Program-made: the position numbers and the translations under genes
DNA from: an uncultured Flavobacteriia bacterium
GTDB taxonomy: Bacteria; Bacteroidota; Bacteroidia; Flavobacteriales_D; Crocinitomicaceae
DNA: 64,000 bases
Assembly (NCBI GenBank): GCA_903873915.1
Contig: CAIQQH010000008.1
Location: forward strand, 24,844 to 88,843
Direction of reading: 5' to 3'
Notes under the pieces: generated by a model
What the model was told of the DNA's origin: nothing
Seen by the model: only the letters and a program-made list of their open reading frames with translations
Database searches by the model: none
Shown: one piece after another, positions 5,030 through 60,203 of the stretch
Position numbering within the stretch: position 1 is the first letter of the stretch
Layout of the letters: every line of letters starts with the position of its first letter

Positions 5030-6826
5030 ATGACTGAAAATAAAATCACCTTCGGAAAAATCTTTTGGCCGAGTTTATTGGCCATATTCATCATGTCCAT
5101 CATTGGGTTGTTCATTTTTGTATTGATCATCGGCGGAATCATTGGGAGTTTTGGTGAATTCGGTCCAAAACCATTGTCCATTAAAAACAACACCGTATTG
5201 CACATGACCTTAAACGGTGAGATTGCAGAAAAGTCAAGTAGTACGTTTGATCCAACTTCATTTAACTTGAACCGTACGATTGGCTTGAGCGACCTGCTTT
5301 TTGGCATTGAAACAGCAAAAAACGACGAGAAGGTAAAGGGAATTTTCCTTGAAGTAGGTGATTTAAATTGCGGGTATTCCAGCACGCGCGAGATTCGTCA
5401 AGCACTCATTGATTTTAAATCATCTGGAAAATTTATCGTTGCCTATAATGCGGGGGAGGTCATTACGCAAAAAGAGTATTATTTAAGTTCTGTTGCCAAC
5501 GAAGTGTATGCGTTTCCATCCTCAGCAATGGAGTTTTTTGGACTCGGTGCTGAGCTCATGTATTTCAAAAACACCTTGGATAAATTGGATGTTGAAGTGG
5601 AAATTATCCGCGGAAGCAACAATGATTTTAAAAGTGCAGTGGAGCCGTTTTTTCGCACGGACATGAGTGATTCTAGTCGTGTTCAAATTGAGCGTTATCT
5701 GACATCTATGTGGGAAGATATTCGACAGGACATTTCAACGGAGCGACAAGTATCCATTCTAAAGTTGAACGATATTGCAGAAAATGCTAGCATAAGAAGA
5801 GCCAACGATGCTGTTAAACTCAAGCTCATTGATGGTGTAATGTACAGAGATGAGGTCATCGATTTGATATCGAAGAAAATTGGCTTAGACCAAGGTGAGG
5901 AACCAGAATTTCAAGCATTTGAAAAGTATGCGCGCAAAAAATTCTATTCGGAGCAAACATTGACCAAAAAAGATGACCCCAATATTGCTGTCATTTTAGC
6001 AGAAGGTGAAATCTCTACCGATGGTGATGGCTTAAGCTCCAAAGAAATCTGTAAGTTATTTCAAGCGGTACGTAAAAACAGTTCAATTAAAACCGTTGTT
6101 TTCCGTGTCAATAGTCCAGGTGGAAGCGCATTGGCAAGTGATGAAATTTGGCGGGAAGTGGTCTTGACAAATAAAACAAAGAAAGTCATTGTATCCATGG
6201 GTGATGTCGCTGCTTCTGGCGGGTATTACGTTTCGGCTCCAGGAACATTGATCTTTGCTGAACCGACGACAATCACGGGATCCATCGGTGTTTTTGGAAT
6301 GATTCCCTACGTTGGGAAAATGCTTGAAAACAAATTGGGCATCACCTTCGATCGAGCTGGAACAAACGCCCATTCGATCATGTCACTCATGAAGAAACTG
6401 ACACCTGAAGAGTTGAAAATGATTCAAAAAGAAGTTGACTACACCTATATGGAATTCCTAAATCGTGTTTCTGTCGGGCGAAATTTATCTGTTGAACAAG
6501 TGAACATGATTGCGCGAGGACGTGTGTGGACAGGCAGAGATGCACTTGAAATAGGCCTTGTCGACCGCTTAGGAGGTCTTTATGATGCGATTCAATTTGC
6601 CTCTAAAAAAGCGGGTATCAAAGACAAAAAAGTATTGTATTATCCCTTGAAAGAAGAAGACATGTGGCAAGAATTACTTGAGGACTATGAAGAAGACAAT
6701 GGAAATCTGGTGATGACACGAAGCAAGCTACCGGAGGTTCTTAGCTCTTCGTACGAATCATTGTTGCGTATGAGCAATCGATTTGGAATTCAAATGCGTT
6801 TACCTTACGAAATTACTATCCATTAA
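5030..6826 (+). CDS. sppA: Signal peptide peptidase SppA, 67-kDa type
   Basis: The 598-residue product is a membrane-bound Ser/Lys protease that degrades cleaved signal peptides. One N-terminal transmembrane helix (about residues 12-38) is followed by two tandem ClpP-fold halves as in the 67K type. The catalytic lysine sits in FKSAVEPFFR (K201) in the first half and the nucleophilic serine in VAASGGYYVSAPG (S396) in the second. TGSIGVFG follows. Length is normal. It is a single gene, convergent with the next gene, the stop codons overlapping by 4 bp. Confidence 0.93.
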   Translation: MTENKITFGKIFWPSLLAIFIMSIIGLFIFVLIIGGIIGSFGEFGPKPLSIKNNTVLHMTLNGEIAEKSSSTFDPTSFNLNRTIGLSDLLFGIETAKNDEKVKGIFLEVGDLNCGYSSTREIRQALIDFKSSGKFIVAYNAGEVITQKEYYLSSVANEVYAFPSSAMEFFGLGAELMYFKNTLDKLDVEVEIIRGSNNDFKSAVEPFFRTDMSDSSRVQIERYLTSMWEDIRQDISTERQVSILKLNDIAENASIRRANDAVKLKLIDGVMYRDEVIDLISKKIGLDQGEEPEFQAFEKYARKKFYSEQTLTKKDDPNIAVILAEGEISTDGDGLSSKEICKLFQAVRKNSSIKTVVFRVNSPGGSALASDEIWREVVLTNKTKKVIVSMGDVAASGGYYVSAPGTLIFAEPTTITGSIGVFGMIPYVGKMLENKLGITFDRAGTNAHSIMSLMKKLTPEELKMIQKEVDYTYMEFLNRVSVGRNLSVEQVNMIARGRVWTGRDALEIGLVDRLGGLYDAIQFASKKAGIKDKKVLYYPLKEEDMWQELLEDYEEDNGNLVMTRSKLPEVLSSSYESLLRMSNRFGIQMRLPYEITIH

Positions 6827-50103: not shown

Positions 50104-50134
50104 AAAAAAAGCCCCGTCGGATGGACGGGGCTTT
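50104..50134 (-). terminator. Intrinsic terminator of the gldK-L-M-N operon
   Basis: AAAGCCCCGTC/GACGGGGCTTT is an 11-bp perfect stem with a 5-nt loop, followed by TTTTTTT on the minus strand, 13 bp after the gldN stop. Confidence 0.92.
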
Positions 50135-50146
50135 AGTGATTTCAGA

Positions 50147-51154
50147 TTAGAAACTCCAAACATCATGTTCGATGGTTCGAATTTCCTCTTTGATTTTTTC
50201 TGCTTCCATGAGTGCATCCGCACCCATACGATAGGATTCAATGTTACGATCGAAAGTATTGCTCTCTTTGTAAATTGTACTGCTAAATCTACGTTTCCAG
50301 AACAAGTCATCAAAACTCATCCATTGCGCATCATTTTGATCGTTGTAGACAAAATAGTTGTTCAATACAAAACGGCACTGTGGGAAGTACAACCAGAACT
50401 TTTCCTCTAGTTTCTGAATTGTTCCATCATCATCCTTCTGGAAAACCACTGGAGCAATAGCTATAATTCTCACATCAAGCACAGAACGCTCCTTATCGAA
50501 GAACCAATCCTCTTTTAAACGAAACTGAACAATATCTTTTGATGTGAACCAACTGGTATCGCGCGCTGGATATACATATTCAATAGTACCATCAGCTAAG
50601 GTTCTTGTACTATCTTCACCAAAGCTATTTGCCAAAGCTGTTGTAGACTGAGCACCCAATTTTCCAAAATAGCTAAACAATACATTTCTGTAAATACTAT
50701 CAGTATAAAAATTCAAACCAGGTTGAGTTGGATCAACAGGATATTTCAGTTGATCACCATCCAAGATATTGAAATCATTGGGATTATATGGAGAAAACAA
50801 TCGAATATCACCTGCCAAAATATGATGCTTTAGTACGGTCCACAAACTCCATCTACTGGAATTCTTTACCCAATTACCCGCTGCATCGTACTCATCCATA
50901 GGAAAATATAAGGGCAAATTAATTTTCTCACGAACATCAATGTATTCCCAAGCACGCTTGCTCCAAACCACATCTGCTTCACGCACATATTCGTAAGGAA
51001 TCAATCGTTTCGTAGGAATATGCTGTTGGATAAATACTCCATCAACGATTCCATCTACAGGAACATTTATTGGTCCTCCATTTATTCCTTCAGGCTGAGC
51101 CTGAGAAAAGAATGCAGCCACCAAAGCGCTTGAAACAATAACTAGCCTTTTCAT
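50147..51154 (-). CDS. gldN: Type IX secretion / gliding protein GldN
   Basis: The 335-residue periplasmic product has a signal peptide (MKRLVIVSSALVAAFFSQA) and the GldN pattern: HIPTKRLIPYEYVREADVVWSKRAWEYIDVREKINLPLYFP, DIVQFRLKEDWFFDKERSVLDVRIIAIAP and EKFWLYFPQCRFVLNN. With GldK it forms the large periplasmic ring of the T9SS, as in Porphyromonas PorN/PorK. It is the last gene of the operon before a strong terminator. Confidence 0.95.
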   Translation of the reverse strand: MKRLVIVSSALVAAFFSQAQPEGINGGPINVPVDGIVDGVFIQQHIPTKRLIPYEYVREADVVWSKRAWEYIDVREKINLPLYFPMDEYDAAGNWVKNSSRWSLWTVLKHHILAGDIRLFSPYNPNDFNILDGDQLKYPVDPTQPGLNFYTDSIYRNVLFSYFGKLGAQSTTALANSFGEDSTRTLADGTIEYVYPARDTSWFTSKDIVQFRLKEDWFFDKERSVLDVRIIAIAPVVFQKDDDGTIQKLEEKFWLYFPQCRFVLNNYFVYNDQNDAQWMSFDDLFWKRRFSSTIYKESNTFDRNIESYRMGADALMEAEKIKEEIRTIEHDVWSF

Positions 51155-51173: not shown

Positions 51174-52940
51174 TTACTGAACTGTAATGATAGTTGCCAT
51201 GTTTCCTGAATACCCCATCCCTTTGTATTTGGCAGAGATACTCACTTTAGCTCCTGGACGTGTTTGCTTTAACAATGAAATTGCATCTGCAGTCAATGTT
51301 GGACCTGAACCCATAATTGATCTTGGCGCTCCCGAGACAGTAATCTCCCAAGATGCGACCTCAAAAGTTGCACTTAGAGGAATTTCCGGTGGGTATCTCG
51401 CAAACAATCGAGTCATTGAAGCAACAGCTGTTTTACTTACAGTTGAACCAGTTCCCAGCGTTCCAAGATATACTTGCGGCGGCGGCAGGTTAGAAACTCT
51501 AAATTTATAGGTACCTACCTTAGCATTTTTATTGCCTTTAGATGATTTTCCATAAATATCAATAGACGCTTCTCTACCCGTGGTCGTTACTGTTCCGATA
51601 TACTGACCAGATTTCTTGCCTGGTTTCAAGGTTACCCCTGTACCACGAAGGTCAGTTTTCTCGTATCCAGCGGCTACACCCTCAACTAGGTTGTTATATC
51701 CTCTGTAGAGAACGTTCATCTCCGGTAGAGATACAGTTCCCTGAGGTTTAACGATCACAATTTTCTTTTCCCAATTTTCTGTTTTCGTGCTTCCGAATTT
51801 ATTCGTAATTGAAACCGTACCTTTCAATACCATTTCGTTACCTCCTGAAGCTCTAGTACGGATAATACCCATACCATTCTTAGTTTCAGAAACAGATGCA
51901 CCTTGGGTTACATTAACCACTGGTTGTCTGTCAGAATCAAAAGCTGCCATCATTACTGATACTTCGATGTCTCCTCCTTCAGTTGCGACTTCGTCACCTA
52001 AGGCAATGGCCATGATTTTGTTAAACGAGTATTCACTGCCACCTACACGCTCTTGAATTAAAGCGATTGCCTCAGCACGTGCAGCGAGTATTTCATTTTG
52101 CATTGAAGACAAAGATGCAATCGCAGCTACAGATGGTGAGTGGTCGAAAGTTTTTCCAATCCAATGTACACCAGGAATTTCATGCACTGTGCTTTTTTCT
52201 TGCTTCGTCAATTTGGCATAGATCTTTTTAATTACATCTTTATCCGCATTGTTCACATTCGAAGCTTTAATCGCTTTGTCAATTTGCGCATTCAAATCTT
52301 CAAAATCTTTGAATGCGTTGATTTTAGGTGCCTTGAAAGAATACTTCTTTCCTCCATCCGGCATCCATGAATTCGCAATTTTCTCAGTCAATTCAGTGCG
52401 GTAGTCGTTGTAACTGTTCCACAACTTCATGCCTGCTCCACTGGCTTTCGGGTTTTTAATGTCCTCGCCAATCATGATTTCCATTGCCTCATCGTACTTG
52501 TCCTTACCAGCTACATGCTCTAGGTGCATACGTGTAGGTAAAAGCGGATCATTTGCTGAGTACTTTTTGAAGATAATACTTTCCTTACCACCTTTTGTAG
52601 TTACATCTTCACCACATTTTTTTAGAATCTCAATTTTGATGTCATCAATCATCTTGATTCTCTCTGCAGTCATTTTATCAATATCTTCGATAACCGCCAG
52701 GTAATATTTCGCTTTCTTTTGTTTTGCCGGTATAGTTTTATCCGCCGCCACTGATGAAATTTCACCTTTCTTTTCAGCTCCACGAGCATACTCACTAAGG
52801 TTTGCTACTTGGATGTTTTCCTCGATTGCAACGAATGCATCGAGTATTGATTTTGATACGTTAAGGGCTAGAAGTGCGGTAAGTACTAAGTACATCATAC
52901 CGATCATCTTCTGCCTAGGGGTTTCTTTTCCTCCTGCCAT
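51174..52940 (-). CDS. gldM: Type IX secretion motor protein GldM
   Basis: The 588-residue product starts MAGGKETPRQKMIGMMYLVLTALLALNVS, a single N-terminal helix with the arginine (R9) that pairs with the GldL glutamate in the proton-driven motor. The rest is a long periplasmic shaft of beta domains (for example GNEMVLKGTVSITNKFGSTKTENWEKK) reaching toward the GldKN ring. Slightly longer than the F. johnsoniae protein. It is transcribed between gldL and gldN. Confidence 0.96.
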   Translation of the reverse strand: MAGGKETPRQKMIGMMYLVLTALLALNVSKSILDAFVAIEENIQVANLSEYARGAEKKGEISSVAADKTIPAKQKKAKYYLAVIEDIDKMTAERIKMIDDIKIEILKKCGEDVTTKGGKESIIFKKYSANDPLLPTRMHLEHVAGKDKYDEAMEIMIGEDIKNPKASGAGMKLWNSYNDYRTELTEKIANSWMPDGGKKYSFKAPKINAFKDFEDLNAQIDKAIKASNVNNADKDVIKKIYAKLTKQEKSTVHEIPGVHWIGKTFDHSPSVAAIASLSSMQNEILAARAEAIALIQERVGGSEYSFNKIMAIALGDEVATEGGDIEVSVMMAAFDSDRQPVVNVTQGASVSETKNGMGIIRTRASGGNEMVLKGTVSITNKFGSTKTENWEKKIVIVKPQGTVSLPEMNVLYRGYNNLVEGVAAGYEKTDLRGTGVTLKPGKKSGQYIGTVTTTGREASIDIYGKSSKGNKNAKVGTYKFRVSNLPPPQVYLGTLGTGSTVSKTAVASMTRLFARYPPEIPLSATFEVASWEITVSGAPRSIMGSGPTLTADAISLLKQTRPGAKVSISAKYKGMGYSGNMATIITVQ

Positions 52941-53003: not shown

Positions 53004-53819
53004 TTAACCTTTAGTTATCGTCATAGCTTTCAGCATATTTCCATACACGTTATTCAGATCCGTAAGGTTCCTAGACAACATTGCCATGTTTTCTTTGTAT
53101 ATACGTGTATCTTCCGCAGAGTCAGATAGATTTTTCATCATATTCACAACTTGTGCTTGGAATTTCTCAGTTGCCTCAAGATGTGAAGAAGAACCTTTCA
53201 ATTGAAGTTCGTACACATTGTTAAGTGCAGCAAGATTTTTAGATACTTTTTGCATTTGCTCACCAAATGACTCGCCTTCAGCAGTTGAAGAAGTCAATCC
53301 AGCAATCGATACAGACGCACGCTCATACGCTTCGGAGAGAGACGCTACTTTTACAGAAGCCGCCTGAAGGCTTGATACGTAATCGTCTGTTGCAGCTACA
53401 GCAGTAGTAATCCCTTTCAATTGAGATGCATTGTCTGCTAAAGTGCGCATTCCATCTCCTAAACGCTCTAGTAAAGCTCCATCGATTTTTGCCTCTGCAA
53501 GCATTTTGTCCAATTGGTCAGTGATCCCAGAACCACCGCGACCTCCACGTCCTCCGGCAGGAAGATTTTCGTGATCCAATTCATCTGAGTGACCTAGCGC
53601 CAATTCAGGATACACAAGTTCCCAATTTGGATCTTCATGAATCGGCTCAAATGCCGAGAATGCGAAGATTAATGCTTCTGTTCCTAAACCGATGATCAAC
53701 ATCAGTGATGCAAACGGCCAATGTTGAATCTTAAACAACGCCCCTACGATTACGACTGCTGCACCAAATCCATACAGCTTTGCCATAAACTTTTTCCATC
53801 CTTTACTTCCTGGTTTCAT
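53004..53819 (-). CDS. gldL: Type IX secretion motor protein GldL
   Basis: The 271-residue product has two N-terminal membrane helices (FMAKLYGFGAAVVIVGALFKIQ and SLMLIIGLGTEALIFAFSAFEP). The second carries the glutamate (E48 here) that corresponds to the essential motor Glu of GldL. A cytoplasmic helical tail of about 190 residues follows, with a Gly/Arg-rich linker (AGGRGGRGGSG). GldL forms the stator ring around two GldM chains. Confidence 0.96.
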   Translation of the reverse strand: MKPGSKGWKKFMAKLYGFGAAVVIVGALFKIQHWPFASLMLIIGLGTEALIFAFSAFEPIHEDPNWELVYPELALGHSDELDHENLPAGGRGGRGGSGITDQLDKMLAEAKIDGALLERLGDGMRTLADNASQLKGITTAVAATDDYVSSLQAASVKVASLSEAYERASVSIAGLTSSTAEGESFGEQMQKVSKNLAALNNVYELQLKGSSSHLEATEKFQAQVVNMMKNLSDSAEDTRIYKENMAMLSRNLTDLNNVYGNMLKAMTITKG

Positions 53820-53868: not shown

Positions 53869-55434
53869 TTAGCGAAGTTGGATGTCGCTTTGAATTTCTT
53901 CGCCTCCCTCACGAGTAAAATCTTTTCCTCCTCGTCCTAGGTGAGTCATTACGTTTCGGTAACCGATGTATGACTTGGCAGTGTCTTGGTATTCATACGT
54001 TCGTGATGCATTCTGGAGATAGAATCCGATGTCTTTCCAAGATCCTCCACGAAGCACTTTACGCTTCGCTGATGGCGGATCCCAATCCATCGCATCATAG
54101 CGATAATCTGTATTCATGTCGTGAGAGAATTCATACATTGACTCATCAAATGCAGTTTCACACCACTCGGAAACGTTTCCAGCCATACAATATAGACCCC
54201 ATCCGTTTGGATTGTATGTAAATACTTTCACCGTATGGAAACCTCCATCCTCGAAGTATCTTCCACGCATCGGCTTGAAGTTGCCTAAGAAACAACCATT
54301 TCCATTTCTAATATATGGTCCACCCCATGGGAATTGAGACATATTTAAATCTCCTCGTGAAGCGCGTTCCCACTCTGCCTCAGTTGGCAAACGGAAATCA
54401 TTCACAAACAAATCACCCATTGCAACCAACCAGTTGTTCAACAGCTGTGTTCTCCAAACAGAAAATGCTTTTGCTTGGAACCAAGTCACACCAACTACAG
54501 GGTAGTTGTCATACGCAGGATGCCAAAAATACATGTTCGTCATTGGGTCATGGAACGAGTAAGTAAAATCACGTACCCAACATAATGTATCCGGGTACAC
54601 ATTAATTACTTCGTCGATGATGAATCTATTTCTGTCAGTATGACCCCGTAAAGCATTGTTTTGTCCTTTCTTATTAAAGTACCCCATATCTAAATCCTGA
54701 CCTTGAGGCTCACCCGTAAATGGATGTTCAGGAGTATTTAGGTTACGGTGATCTTGAGACTGTTTTGAACCTGGATCTTGAACGGTTCCAGACGGTGCAA
54801 ATCCACCATTTTCAATTTCGATACGTCCACGTTTTGCGGCTTCGCGGTAATCAATCCAATAATAACGGAACATCAATTTACGTGTATCGATTTCTCTTCT
54901 TTTGTAGAAGCGTTCTGGTTGAGGATAATACATATCGGCCAAAATAGGAACGATGTCTGGATCGGCGTAATCAAAATTACGGTCCCAATTCAATGAGAAA
55001 ATTTGACGATTCATGTCACGCTCGGCCGGATCGTATTCCACATATTCCAAAGACCCTTCATCAAAATACATGTCGGAGTAGTTGATGTACTTTCCAGCAT
55101 CATCATCTTCAGTCAATTCTGACATGTAGATTTTATCGCGAGCAATTGAGTCACGCACCCATTCTACGAATTGGCGGTACTCGTTGTTCGAGATTTCCGT
55201 TTGGTCCATGTAAAAAGCCTGAATGGATACCGTCTTCGCCCTAGTTTGGTGAAGGAATGGTACATCTTGGTCATTTTCACCCATGGTATATGACCCCGCA
55301 GGAATATACACCATACCCAATGGAATTTCGGGTTGGTACACTGGTCTACCCATTGCACCGGTCAGATGGCCTGTTCTTGTACTACAAGAAACAAGCAGCG
55401 CACCTGCCATACCAATTAACAAAAGTTTTTTCAT
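53869..55434 (-). CDS. gldK: Type IX secretion lipoprotein GldK
   Basis: The 521-residue product has a lipoprotein signal (lipobox LLVSC in GALLVSCSTRTG) and a formylglycine-generating-enzyme-like fold: MVYIPAGSYTMGENDQD, FYMDQTEISNNEYRQFVEW, VGVTWFQAKAFSVWRTQLL, RLPTEAEWERASRG, VSEWCETAFD and VLRGGSWKD. The fold is used structurally, not catalytically, in the ring of the T9SS. It is the first gene of gldK-L-M-N and follows the PorP gene by 117 bp. Confidence 0.96.
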   Translation of the reverse strand: MKKLLLIGMAGALLVSCSTRTGHLTGAMGRPVYQPEIPLGMVYIPAGSYTMGENDQDVPFLHQTRAKTVSIQAFYMDQTEISNNEYRQFVEWVRDSIARDKIYMSELTEDDDAGKYINYSDMYFDEGSLEYVEYDPAERDMNRQIFSLNWDRNFDYADPDIVPILADMYYPQPERFYKRREIDTRKLMFRYYWIDYREAAKRGRIEIENGGFAPSGTVQDPGSKQSQDHRNLNTPEHPFTGEPQGQDLDMGYFNKKGQNNALRGHTDRNRFIIDEVINVYPDTLCWVRDFTYSFHDPMTNMYFWHPAYDNYPVVGVTWFQAKAFSVWRTQLLNNWLVAMGDLFVNDFRLPTEAEWERASRGDLNMSQFPWGGPYIRNGNGCFLGNFKPMRGRYFEDGGFHTVKVFTYNPNGWGLYCMAGNVSEWCETAFDESMYEFSHDMNTDYRYDAMDWDPPSAKRKVLRGGSWKDIGFYLQNASRTYEYQDTAKSYIGYRNVMTHLGRGGKDFTREGGEEIQSDIQLR

Positions 55435-55551: not shown

Positions 55552-56481
55552 CTACAACCATCTTGGATGCGCAGCCTTTGTTACAGGCGGCGGTGGAAGG
55601 AAGTAGCAATACTTCACCATGATCTCGTGTGAACCGCGAGAAACACTGGCTAATTTGTTCGTTGTAATATCGTATGAGTAGCCAACAGTCATGTTTTTAA
55701 TCGGCATAAATCCAAGCATTAGTCCGATGGCATCCACCGTTCTATAAGTTAAGCCACCATAAGCCATGCCTCTCCATAAATAGCGAACATTTAAGTCAGC
55801 ACTAAATTTAACCAAATCAGTTCTTAACAAAACTTGAGCATCGATGTCGCCTCCAAGCACGTTTGTAAACTTTTTACCTCCCATGATGAAGTAGTGACGC
55901 GCTGTTTGATACGATTGTGTCGCCGACCCACCTTGAAGTAAAGATTCGGAAACATGTGTAGAAGAGATTCCTGCATAATAGTTTTGAGTTCCTTTCCAGT
56001 ACAAACCGAAATTCAAATCTAAACTCGTGGCCGCAAAACCAACGGGCAGTGTATTGTCAAGAGTGGTCGTTGGTGGCACCCAAACTGGCGACATCCCAAA
56101 ATTTATTATTCCGACGCCTACCCCAATACCTAAGGTACCCGCGGAACCAATCTGCAATGGATATGAATAATTCAACAACAAGTTGTTTTGACGTGAAAAA
56201 CCAATGGCATCATGGAAGAAAGAAATACCCACTCCACCTGGAAAAAATCGATTTAAGTTTGCCTCCACATTCAACATTGCAGAATTTGGCGCTCCGTTCA
56301 CTTTATCCCATTGATTGCGGTACAAAGTTGTCGCACAGATACCTTCATCGATACCCGTTTCCCCTGGATTGAAAGTCATTTTATTGTATATAAAATGAGT
56401 CACAAGAGGGTCTTGTTGCGCATAAATCGATCCGTAAATCGATGAAACACAAGTAAATAACACAAGTAATATCTTCTTCAT
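55552..56481 (-). CDS. PorP/SprF family T9SS outer-membrane protein
   Basis: The 309-residue product has a signal peptide (MKKILLVLFTCVSSIYGSIYAQQ) and the PorP/SprF pattern: DPLVTHFIYNKMTFNPGETG, CATTLYRNQWDKVNGAPNSAMLNVEA, GVGISFFHDAIGFSRQNNLLLNYSY and GYSYDITTNKLA. Members are outer-membrane beta-barrels required for secretion of type B cargo such as SprB. It sits directly upstream of gldK and is probably cotranscribed. A dedicated type B cargo is not encoded next to it; the nearest candidate is at 10753. Confidence 0.92.
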   Translation of the reverse strand: MKKILLVLFTCVSSIYGSIYAQQDPLVTHFIYNKMTFNPGETGIDEGICATTLYRNQWDKVNGAPNSAMLNVEANLNRFFPGGVGISFFHDAIGFSRQNNLLLNYSYPLQIGSAGTLGIGVGVGIINFGMSPVWVPPTTTLDNTLPVGFAATSLDLNFGLYWKGTQNYYAGISSTHVSESLLQGGSATQSYQTARHYFIMGGKKFTNVLGGDIDAQVLLRTDLVKFSADLNVRYLWRGMAYGGLTYRTVDAIGLMLGFMPIKNMTVGYSYDITTNKLASVSRGSHEIMVKYCYFLPPPPVTKAAHPRWL

Positions 56482-56624: not shown

Positions 56625-57782
56625 TCAAGATAATTTCTGGTAAGTCTTCCACCACAAATCAGGAATTTCATTTTTCATTGCCAACTCATAATCCATTGCA
56701 TCGCAAGGAACTAAGTGATGTCTCTCATAAGAACTACCTTTTTGCGGAGGGTAAGGAATTTCCATCCACCAGCGTTCAGATCGGTTGCTTTTGTAGAAGA
56801 TCAACTCTTCCTTAAAATCATTTATGTGCACAATGAATTTTAGATAATCGCGCTTGCTGCCAATTGGAAAATCCCCCTTACGCTGAGAAACACCGTCTAA
56901 AAAATACCAAAGAATCTGGGCCAAGAGCGCAGAAGCACTTCCTGCTTCAAACTCAGGATAATAATTAAATACTCCCATTGAGGTCAGCTTGTCGCTAAGA
57001 CCTGCATATTTGGCGATTTGACAGATCTGATCTGCGTAAAAACCATTTGGTGACGTATACCATGGTTCGCGAAGTTCAGATCCACGGATGCTTGAGAAAT
57101 CGATGGAAAGAAGATCTGAATTTCGCAGATGTGGTTCAGCTTTTCTAAAATTCGCATTGTAATCACCAAGACGACAGATGTCAAAATACAACTTATCGAA
57201 CAAGTCGAATTCTTCTCTCGACACAAACGGCGACTGTGCACCGATGTTGGCATGGTTAAACAAATAGCACGGCCGCTGCATGAGTAATTGACTCAAGTAA
57301 CCTTCGGCATGCGATTCCGCTTCCGGACTACCGAGATCAAGTGAATAGTCGACAGAACAGATGTTAACGACTTGTTCAAGTGCCGCATAGCCTTTATACA
57401 TGGCGATAGTCAAATCCTGACTACCTCCAACCAACAAAGGGATCACGCCTAGCTTAACGCACTCTTGAATGATTTGTGAAACGGCAAAATAGGTATCATC
57501 CATAGTTGACCCTGGAAGCACATCACCCAAATCGTACAAGGGCATTTCCCAACCAACGCCGAGGTATAATGAGTTTAACAAATGTCTAAATTGCTCAGGA
57601 TTGTGGGGGCATGCTTTTTTATCTCCCCGGTACTCGGGAACATGAAAAATGGCAACACCACCTTTCTTTAATTCAGGGAATCCTGATGCTGTGTTAAACG
57701 ATTGAATAGCACTTCCGATCTGATTCGCGCGGTACTTTTCTTCACCACCGAGTGGCAACAAATAGATCGAAATGTCTTTCAT
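56625..57782 (-). CDS. Arginase/formimidoylglutamase-fold protein with degenerate metal site
   Basis: ATG 57782 (MKDISIYLLPLGG) is preferred over the track's TTG. The 385-residue product has the ureohydrolase fold signature but not its metal ligands: GGDHS is replaced by LLVGGSQDLTIAM, DAHxD by CSVDYSLDLGS, and SxDxDxxDP by LSIDFSSIRGSE. Without the His/Asp bridge, dinuclear manganese chemistry is not expected. The position upstream of PorP-gldK-L-M-N fits the gene that I recall as conserved near this operon in Bacteroidota, so an accessory role in T9SS assembly is plausible. Alternative: a retained enzyme with an unusual metal site. Confidence 0.8.
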   Translation of the reverse strand: MKDISIYLLPLGGEEKYRANQIGSAIQSFNTASGFPELKKGGVAIFHVPEYRGDKKACPHNPEQFRHLLNSLYLGVGWEMPLYDLGDVLPGSTMDDTYFAVSQIIQECVKLGVIPLLVGGSQDLTIAMYKGYAALEQVVNICSVDYSLDLGSPEAESHAEGYLSQLLMQRPCYLFNHANIGAQSPFVSREEFDLFDKLYFDICRLGDYNANFRKAEPHLRNSDLLSIDFSSIRGSELREPWYTSPNGFYADQICQIAKYAGLSDKLTSMGVFNYYPEFEAGSASALLAQILWYFLDGVSQRKGDFPIGSKRDYLKFIVHINDFKEELIFYKSNRSERWWMEIPYPPQKGSSYERHHLVPCDAMDYELAMKNEIPDLWWKTYQKLS

Positions 57783-57884: not shown

Positions 57885-60203
57885 CTATTTCTTTTTCGCA
57901 CCTTTTTTTGGAGCTGTTTTTTGGTTTGCAGCAATATCCAAACACTCTTCAATCGTCAAGGTTTCAGGAACCGTTCCTTTTGGCAACTTAAAATTATCTT
58001 TCCCAATTTTAAGGTATGCACCATAGCGGCCATTAAGCAGTTGAACATCCGCGCGTCCATCAAATGTTTTGATCATTTTATTGGCCTCTTCCTCCTGCTT
58101 CACGGCGATAATCTCTAGAGCTCTCTCTAAGGTTATAGACATGGGGTCTTCTCCTTTCGGGATCGAAACAAAAAGTTTCCCGTACTGAACATATGGTCCA
58201 AAACGGCCTGCATTTGCACGAATTTCTTGGCCTTCTGATTCGCCTAAAACACGAGGTAATTTGAATAATTCCAAGGCATCTGCTAAAGTTACCGTAGAAA
58301 TAGATTGTTCCTTGCGCAAAGAAGCAAAGGTCGGTTTTTCGCCATCGACTTGCTCATCACCAATTTGTATCATTGGGCCGAAGCGGCCGATTCGGGCAAT
58401 TACATTTTTACCAGACACGGGGTGTTGACCGAGTTGTCTTTCTCCAGTTACACGGCTTGAATTTTCAAGTGTATCTTCTACATTTTTATGAAATGGGGTG
58501 TAAAAATCATGAAGCATCTGCGTCCAACCAATCAACCCATGCGCTATTTCATCGAATTCTTGTTCAACCTTCGCGGTGAATTGGTAATCCATGATTTGAC
58601 CAAAATGCTCTGATAAAAAATCTGTCACAAGTGAACCGATGTCTGTTGGAGACAATTTATTTTTTTCTTTTCCTGTCACTTCCTTTCGGACCTCAGTATG
58701 AATGGATCCGTTTTTCAAGGACAAATAGGCATACTTGCGTTCCTCACCCTCGCGCTCCATCTTTTCCACATACCCGCGCTTTTGAATTGCCGAAATCGTT
58801 GACGCATAGGTTGATGGGCGACCAATACCAAGCTCTTCCATTTTCTTCACAAGAGAGGCTTCCACATATCGGGCTGGAGGACGAGTAAATCGTTCGATAG
58901 ATGTAATTTCTGACACCTTCAACTCTTCTCCCACCGTTACCGCGGGCAAAAGCCCTTCAGTTTGTTCCTCGTCGTTGTCCAAGTCCTCAACATTCGACTC
59001 CATGTAAACGCGCAAGAAACCGTCAAAACGAATGACCTCTCCTTTTGCTTCAAACTTCCCAGATATAGGCGGGGATGTGATGGCAACAGTTGTTCTTTCC
59101 AATTTAGCCAAGGCCATTTGAGAGGCAATAGCTCGCTTCCAAACCAATTCATACAAGCGTTCTTCATCGCGCTCTCCTGTAATGCTGTGCGTGCCAAAAT
59201 CCGTCGGGCGTATGGCCTCGTGGGCTTCTTGTGCACTGGCGCTCTTTGTGGTGTATTTGGTTGGGCGCGAATAGTCTTCACCATAAGCACGAATAATTTC
59301 AGCTTTCGCCCCTTGAACAGCGGTTTCGGATAAATTCACCGAGTCCGTTCTCATGTATGTGATTTTCCCTGACTCATACAATTTCTGCGCAACCGTCATT
59401 GTGCGGGATACTGAAAAGCCAAGTTTTAAGCTCGCTTCTTGTTGCAAAGTTGAGGTAGTAAATGGTGCTGCAGGGGTTCGCGTTGCTGGCTTTGTTTGAA
59501 CATCTGCAACGGTAAATGTTGCGCCATTGCAGCTTTCCAAGAAACTTATTGACTCCTCTTCCGATTTTAATTGCGACGAATATTCTGTTTTCAACATTCC
59601 CTTTTGAGCACCAAAGATTCCGTTCACACGGAAAAAGTTATTCGATTTGTGGACCTCAATTTCTCGTTCTCGTTCAACAATCAAACGCACTGAAACAGAC
59701 TGTACACGTCCTGCGGACAAACTTGGTCGTACTTTCTTCCACAACACTGGGGACAATTCAAAACCCACCAAACGATCTAGCATTCTTCGCGCTTGCTGGG
59801 CATCAACGAGTTGTTTGTTTATTTCACGTGGATTTTCAATGGCTTTAAGAATCGCTGTCTTCGTGATTTCGTTAAATGTAATGCGTTTGGTGTCTTTTTT
59901 TGCAAGTCCCAAAGTCTCGTACAAGTGCCAAGAAATTGCTTCACCCTCCCGGTCCTCATCCGTTGCTAGCCATACCGTCTCGGCCTCCTTTGCTAATTTT
60001 TTCAATTCAGCAACCAATTGTTTTTTATCCGGTGATATTTCGTAATTGGGCTCAAAATTATTCTCCACGTCGATGGCCATTCCTTTTTTAGCAAGGTCAC
60101 GAACATGCCCGAAACTGGATTTTACGATAAAATCCTTTCCAAGATATCCTTCAATGGTTTTGGCTTTTGCTGGTGACTCGACTATTACAAGATTTTTTGC
60201 CAT
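57885..60203 (-). CDS. topA: DNA topoisomerase I
   Basis: The 772-residue type IA enzyme has the Toprim domain (NLVIVESPAKAKTIEGYLG, WLATDEDREGEAISWHL), core domains and the catalytic tyrosine Y283 in KITYMRTDSVN. The C-terminal part carries repeated domains (GKNVIARIGRFGPMIQIG, IRANAGRFGPYVQYG, LNGRYGAYLKIGK) in place of zinc fingers, and a Lys-rich tail APKKGAKKK. It relaxes negative supercoils. It begins the topA-arginase-PorP-gldKLMN stretch. Confidence 0.96.
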   Translation of the reverse strand: MAKNLVIVESPAKAKTIEGYLGKDFIVKSSFGHVRDLAKKGMAIDVENNFEPNYEISPDKKQLVAELKKLAKEAETVWLATDEDREGEAISWHLYETLGLAKKDTKRITFNEITKTAILKAIENPREINKQLVDAQQARRMLDRLVGFELSPVLWKKVRPSLSAGRVQSVSVRLIVEREREIEVHKSNNFFRVNGIFGAQKGMLKTEYSSQLKSEEESISFLESCNGATFTVADVQTKPATRTPAAPFTTSTLQQEASLKLGFSVSRTMTVAQKLYESGKITYMRTDSVNLSETAVQGAKAEIIRAYGEDYSRPTKYTTKSASAQEAHEAIRPTDFGTHSITGERDEERLYELVWKRAIASQMALAKLERTTVAITSPPISGKFEAKGEVIRFDGFLRVYMESNVEDLDNDEEQTEGLLPAVTVGEELKVSEITSIERFTRPPARYVEASLVKKMEELGIGRPSTYASTISAIQKRGYVEKMEREGEERKYAYLSLKNGSIHTEVRKEVTGKEKNKLSPTDIGSLVTDFLSEHFGQIMDYQFTAKVEQEFDEIAHGLIGWTQMLHDFYTPFHKNVEDTLENSSRVTGERQLGQHPVSGKNVIARIGRFGPMIQIGDEQVDGEKPTFASLRKEQSISTVTLADALELFKLPRVLGESEGQEIRANAGRFGPYVQYGKLFVSIPKGEDPMSITLERALEIIAVKQEEEANKMIKTFDGRADVQLLNGRYGAYLKIGKDNFKLPKGTVPETLTIEECLDIAANQKTAPKKGAKKK

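Follow-up and report, generated by a model that had tools for sequence, protein, structure and literature searches.

What does a protein with the predicted fold of a two-metal hydrolase, whose metal-binding motifs are all altered, do beside the genes for a secretion and gliding motor? This question is raised by an open reading frame at positions 56625 to 57782 of the window, by which we mean the whole 64,000-nucleotide stretch of DNA that was analyzed. The frame lies just upstream of the porP and gldKLMN genes for the type IX secretion system (T9SS) and gliding machinery of the Bacteroidia, a large class whose members glide and secrete proteins. The motor of this machinery is one of few proton-driven rotary machines, and its cytoplasmic control and assembly are poorly known. 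In what follows, the prefixes f, G, and L denote a family, a genome, and a locus, respectively.

A predicted arginase fold with an incomplete metal center

The original prediction placed a gene at these coordinates, and this is borne out on the minus strand, where the frame encodes 385 amino acids from an ATG at position 57782 that aligns with the start of most orthologs. Comparison with two close relatives yields a dN/dS ratio of ∼0.04 at a dS of ∼0.57, whereas silent sites are saturated in the other two pairs compared. The frame is thus a genuine gene on which purifying selection acts. No signal peptide is visible in the 385-residue sequence, which suggests that the protein is cytoplasmic.

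An AlphaFold2 model computed with 28 orthologs as input has a pLDDT of 89.6 and a pTM of 0.91. Foldseek matches this model to the formimidoylglutamase structures 3m1r and 4mxr with a probability of 1.00 and TM scores of 0.77 to 0.80 by target length, and its best matches include metformin hydrolase, formimidoylglutamases, and an arginase-like protein of Trypanosoma brucei. Sequence profiles agree with the structure search on this kinship. The Pfam Arginase model (PF00491) gives 26.6 bits (cut-off, 22 bits), and the HutG equivalog model of the curated NCBIfam set (TIGR01227) scores 35.4 bits against a cut-off of 229.15. By its predicted fold, the protein can be assigned to the arginase/ureohydrolase superfamily with high confidence. 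A search of a viral structure library returned viral arginases and deacetylases and gave no lead.

Catalytic ureohydrolases use six metal ligands, two His and four Asp, which in HutG-like relatives fall in the pattern GGGHD / DAHLD / SFDxDS. In the window protein, one ligand is changed in each motif (all coordinates on the minus strand). Motif 1 reads GGSQD (57414 to 57428, residues 119 to 123), with Gln122 where catalytic relatives have His. Motif 2 reads DYSLD (57336 to 57350, residues 145 to 149), in which Asp145 and Asp149 are retained and Ser147 replaces His. Motif 3 reads SIDFSSIRGSE (57075 to 57107, residues 226 to 236), in which Asp228 is retained and Ser230 replaces Asp. The resulting ligand string is Q-D-S-D-D-S, as opposed to the H-D-H-D-D-D that catalytic relatives show with few exceptions. 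It was therefore right to claim that all three metal motifs are altered while the text of the fold remains, although it would be wrong to say that all ligands are lost.

Ligand strings in the family mostly follow [QH]DxDDx, and a search of the 103 aligned members for one with all six ligands found none. Of the 95 core members, 78 have Gln at position 122 and 10 have His; 94 retain Asp145, 88 retain Asp149, and 89 retain Asp228, and positions 147 and 230 vary freely. These counts indicate a second metal site that is disrupted across the whole family and a first site whose Asp ligands are intact in most lineages. The retained Asp triad may still form a metal or ligand site. Members from f16, f18, f65, and f71 have lost one or more of the retained Asp ligands, and the gene persists there. 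Several other polar residues (E50, R52, N176, Q183, D201, E216, R220, and D223) are invariant in our alignment A1. In A2, the alignment with diverged members, the columns that stay invariant are Q183, G247, W292, and W338 (numbering of the window protein), none of which is a metal ligand.

The protein also carries a C-terminal extension (residues 300 to 385; 56628 to 56885, minus strand) of four strands and two helices, with the signature FYKSxxSxRWWMExPYP...PCxxxDY...PxxWWKT. Searches of Pfam and the PDB with residues 300 to 385 gave no match. The extension occurs in one copy per genome, within the frame of this gene, and the possibility that it is also a separate domain of other proteins was rejected because none was found. 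W338, C360, and Y365 are invariant in the 95 core members and are kept in nine, eight, and six, respectively, of the nine strongly diverged members, including those from f16 and f18. Few residues stand out in this way, and the extension overall is conserved no better than the rest of the protein. It largely persists in lineages without even the Asp ligands. Members from f18 have a shortened N-terminal half, and their model still matches the arginase fold. Strongly decayed homologs are present in f103 (L213, 6205 to 7152; L214, 620 to 1546), in which the WW pair is intact and the Cys is lost. They were detected only by profiles that include diverged members, the family having first been scored as lacking the gene; thus, further absences could likewise be homologs that escaped detection.

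Of 120 genomes from the order, 116 have an ortholog, as do 233 of the 245 good Bacteroidia genomes (∼95%); a few of the class-wide matches are weak. The 83 sequences with the extension group together with a support of 100, apart from 15 catalytic-type sequences, in a quick tree that has SH-aLRT support only and some long branches. Matches examined outside Bacteroidia are catalytic-type proteins without the extension. As judged from these sequence comparisons, the extension arose once, and the protein is a class-wide pseudo-ureohydrolase of Bacteroidia. The fact that the arginase fold is confidently predicted, that no aligned member has all six ligands, and that the family forms its own clade upholds the pseudoenzyme reading, which we consider well supported. 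Low-scoring arginase-family proteins encoded at G287 C1:4466141, G287 C1:4282432, and G140 C6:75311 (f17) may be other atypical ureohydrolases.

Gene order and co-occurrence with the T9SS and gliding machinery

Translations of the neighboring frames, together with a family-model score for GldM, confirm the earlier observation that the gene sits just upstream of porP and gldK-L-M-N. All are on the minus strand, and the order of transcription is topA, the pseudo-ureohydrolase gene, porP, and gldK-L-M-N. DNA topoisomerase I (topA, 57885 to 60203) lies upstream across a gap of 102 bp, and a gene for a PorP/SprF-family outer-membrane protein (55552 to 56481) lies downstream across a gap of 143 bp. 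There follow the genes for the ring/track lipoprotein GldK (53869 to 55434), the motor proteins GldL (53004 to 53819) and GldM (51174 to 52940), and the ring protein GldN (50147 to 51154). Just after gldN, a strong terminator-like hairpin of 11 pairs with a T-tail occurs as a pattern match (50108 to 50134, minus strand). The same pattern scan, which reports six terminator-like sites in the region where shuffling predicts 8.4, finds none in the gaps on either side of the pseudo-ureohydrolase gene. The gene heads the porP-gldKLMN operon and is probably transcribed with it.

To count linkage, one genome was taken per family (59 representatives), and gldM was scored as linked when within 8 kb of the gene. 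By this measure, gldM is linked in 33 representatives and not linked in 26, with contig ends making a few of the negatives uncertain. Both topA and gldM are linked in 30, gldM only in 2, topA only in 3, and neither in 12; where topA was unscored, gldM is near in 1 and not near in 11. Linkage to topA is thus about as frequent as linkage to gldM. Random placement cannot explain linkage in 33 of 59 families. Vertical inheritance can, so that this count establishes an old gene order and not a function. The proposed conservation next to gldK-N is therefore real and old, although it does not hold in the 26 families that have lost it.

Several individual loci depart from this order or hold to it. Adjacency to the gldK operon is retained after topA has moved away in f74, in f100, and, at many loci, in the family to which the window belongs. 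At L195 (G456, f65; gene at 5733), the order topA-gene-porP-gldKLMN is intact and five of the six ligands are noncatalytic (R-D-Y-N-S-E), which indicates that the gene order survives the decay of the metal site. In f18 (L148, L150, and L151), where porU is next, and in f102 (L196), the gene is found next to murF-gldJ-porP; this is a T9SS/gliding neighborhood other than the gldKLMN operon. An HpnA-like SDR epimerase gene adjoins it in f14, f71, f83, and f104 (L156, L186, L191, L197, and L202) and is near it in f15, and these settings lie outside the T9SS operon. At L090, a second GldM-like gene is found past the gldKLMN operon, ∼8.8 kb downstream of the start of the pseudo-ureohydrolase gene. 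Several contigs that closely resemble this Crocinitomicaceae-like locus (including L035, L036, L065, and L069) belong to metagenome-assembled genomes titled Chitinophaga pinensis, Chryseobacterium gleum, and Candidatus Kuenenia; these titles look wrong or the bins mixed.

GldM is present in all 115 carriers of the gene that were tested, although this co-occurrence carries little weight because GldM is near-universal in the class. Apart from the two genomes of f103, which count as decayed carriers, 17 Bacteroidia genomes were scored as lacking the gene. GldM is present in 9 of these and absent from 8, and several of the 8 are incomplete or reduced genomes. No copy is detectable in the GldM-bearing f21, f77, f107, and f116, in part of f22 (g276), or in G112, and hence the protein is not found wherever the machinery is found. 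These lineages keep porP-gldK-L-M, which argues that it is not a core part. In G112, a member of the window's own family, the gene is absent, porP-gldK-L-M-N is intact, and topA is on another contig (L211 and L212). This genome is a possible natural deletion, and its operon demonstrates that the operon can exist without the gene.

Two candidate markers of gliding were rejected. GldB occurs in nearly all genomes, including GldM-less ones and the Bacteroides control, and is thus uninformative. GldJ is a weak marker. It is absent in the copy-less f22, f107, and f116; it is also undetectable, as is GldB, in the gene-bearing G121, and it is present in the copy-less f77. Over 15 complete loci, rate covariation of the pseudo-ureohydrolase with GldK, GldL, and GldM is weak (r of 0.16 to 0.29) and reveals no particular link to these proteins, and the highest residual rate correlations are with an LptE-like lipoprotein and then PorP. 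A literature search, with most subscription journals outside its scope, found no work on gliding or the T9SS that names the protein.

Possible roles of the protein

Our leading reading, to which we assign a probability of about 45%, is that this pseudo-ureohydrolase works in the cytoplasm as a soluble adaptor or binding protein that is made with the T9SS/gliding machinery and would serve it. A formimidoylglutamase-like protein with the arginase fold would have lost its two-metal hydrolase center in the ancestor of Bacteroidia, and the same ancestral protein would have gained the C-terminal extension, later to be among its most constant parts. The arginase fold would then act as a scaffold, and the extension around W338, C360, and Y365 would provide a contact or ligand surface. 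Cotranscription with the T9SS operon is presumed, and the partner might, as a guess, be the cytoplasmic side of GldL/GldM, where the motor is within reach of a protein in the cytoplasm. A bolder version is rather doubtful in our view, namely that the protein is an undescribed cytoplasmic component of the motor, ancestral to Bacteroidia and recruited from a dead metabolic enzyme, whose new C-terminal domain links the motor to its assembly or to a signal in the cytoplasm.

The observations on gene order also fit a general cytoplasmic pseudo-ureohydrolase, whether sensor, regulator, or structural protein, that is unrelated to secretion and whose place between topA and gldK is merely inherited. 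Linkage to topA and linkage to gldM decay about equally, the gene is retained in many families after its exit from the T9SS operon, an HpnA-like SDR neighborhood takes the operon's place in some of them, and GldM-bearing genomes without the gene exist. Against such a factor speak the second, different T9SS neighborhood around gldJ-porP, the lack of any carrier without GldM among the 115, and the persistence of gldK-operon adjacency after topA has left. We hold this explanation to be a tentative one that deserves serious consideration.

Three further explanations fare less well. The three Asp residues and Gln/His122 (the latter kept in 88 of 95 core members) could bind a single metal at the former site A of some other working enzyme or sensor, and their constancy beside the free variation of positions 147 and 230 would suit this idea, as would the other invariant polar residues. 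We nevertheless think it improbable, given that the gene persists in families whose members have lost one or more Asp, that the known two-metal hydrolase center is incomplete, and that no metabolic pathway is conserved as a neighbor. The protein could instead be a metal-free subunit that partners a catalytic ureohydrolase, like MetCb for MetCa; its ligand decay is of the kind seen in MetCb homologs, and metformin hydrolase chains are among the best fold matches. This candidate was rejected as very improbable, since the MetCa and MetCb genes are adjacent whereas no catalytic ureohydrolase gene adjoins this one in the window, paralogs in its own genome lie on other contigs, and the 98% complete genome G080 contains no further Arginase-family match. 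Finally, Arginase and HutG are the closest family models, as they would be for an ordinary active formimidoylglutamase or arginase. The shortfall against the curated HutG score, the three missing ligands, and the lack of any six-ligand member among 103 leave that prospect almost no credence, and it too was discarded.

A gene that heads a motor operon in many families, is carried by ∼95% of sampled Bacteroidia, and is apparently undescribed offers a candidate that can be tested directly. Independently of this, the family shows, across the whole class, a metabolic fold that is kept although its metal center is gone, and both intermediate and fully decayed stages can be seen. Database records presumably name the protein formimidoylglutamase through automatic annotation, and such records would mislead reconstructions of histidine metabolism.

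Relation to known systems

The porP-gldKLMN (porPKLMN) core operon provides the closest genomic setting, with the pseudo-ureohydrolase gene placed at its head. The protein is not a described component of this system and is not universal among GldM-bearing genomes. Among catalytic relatives, HutG (TIGR01227; 3m1r, 4mxr, and 1xfk) ranks first in sequence profiles and near the top in structure comparisons, and it shares the arginase fold, the motif spacing, and a third motif of the form SxDxxS(IV)(RK)xS(DE). The pseudo-ureohydrolase differs in having three of six ligands replaced, an extra C-terminal extension, a separate clade, and a score below the HutG cut-off.

The arginase-like protein TbARG of T. 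brucei (4rhk and 4rhm) is another natural arginase-fold protein with missing metal ligands. It is eukaryotic and has no secretion context, and we know of no C-terminal extension in it like that described here. A further natural parallel is MetCb/MfmB of metformin hydrolase (8ryi, 8x3g, and 8snf), likewise an arginase-fold pseudoenzyme. MetCb homologs have three to five of the six ligands changed and provide a precedent for an arginase fold that survives as a metal-free binding partner (PMC11271267). With three ligands lost, the window protein falls within this range of decay. MetCb works beside an adjacent catalytic MetCa, whereas the pseudo-ureohydrolase is encoded without such a partner.
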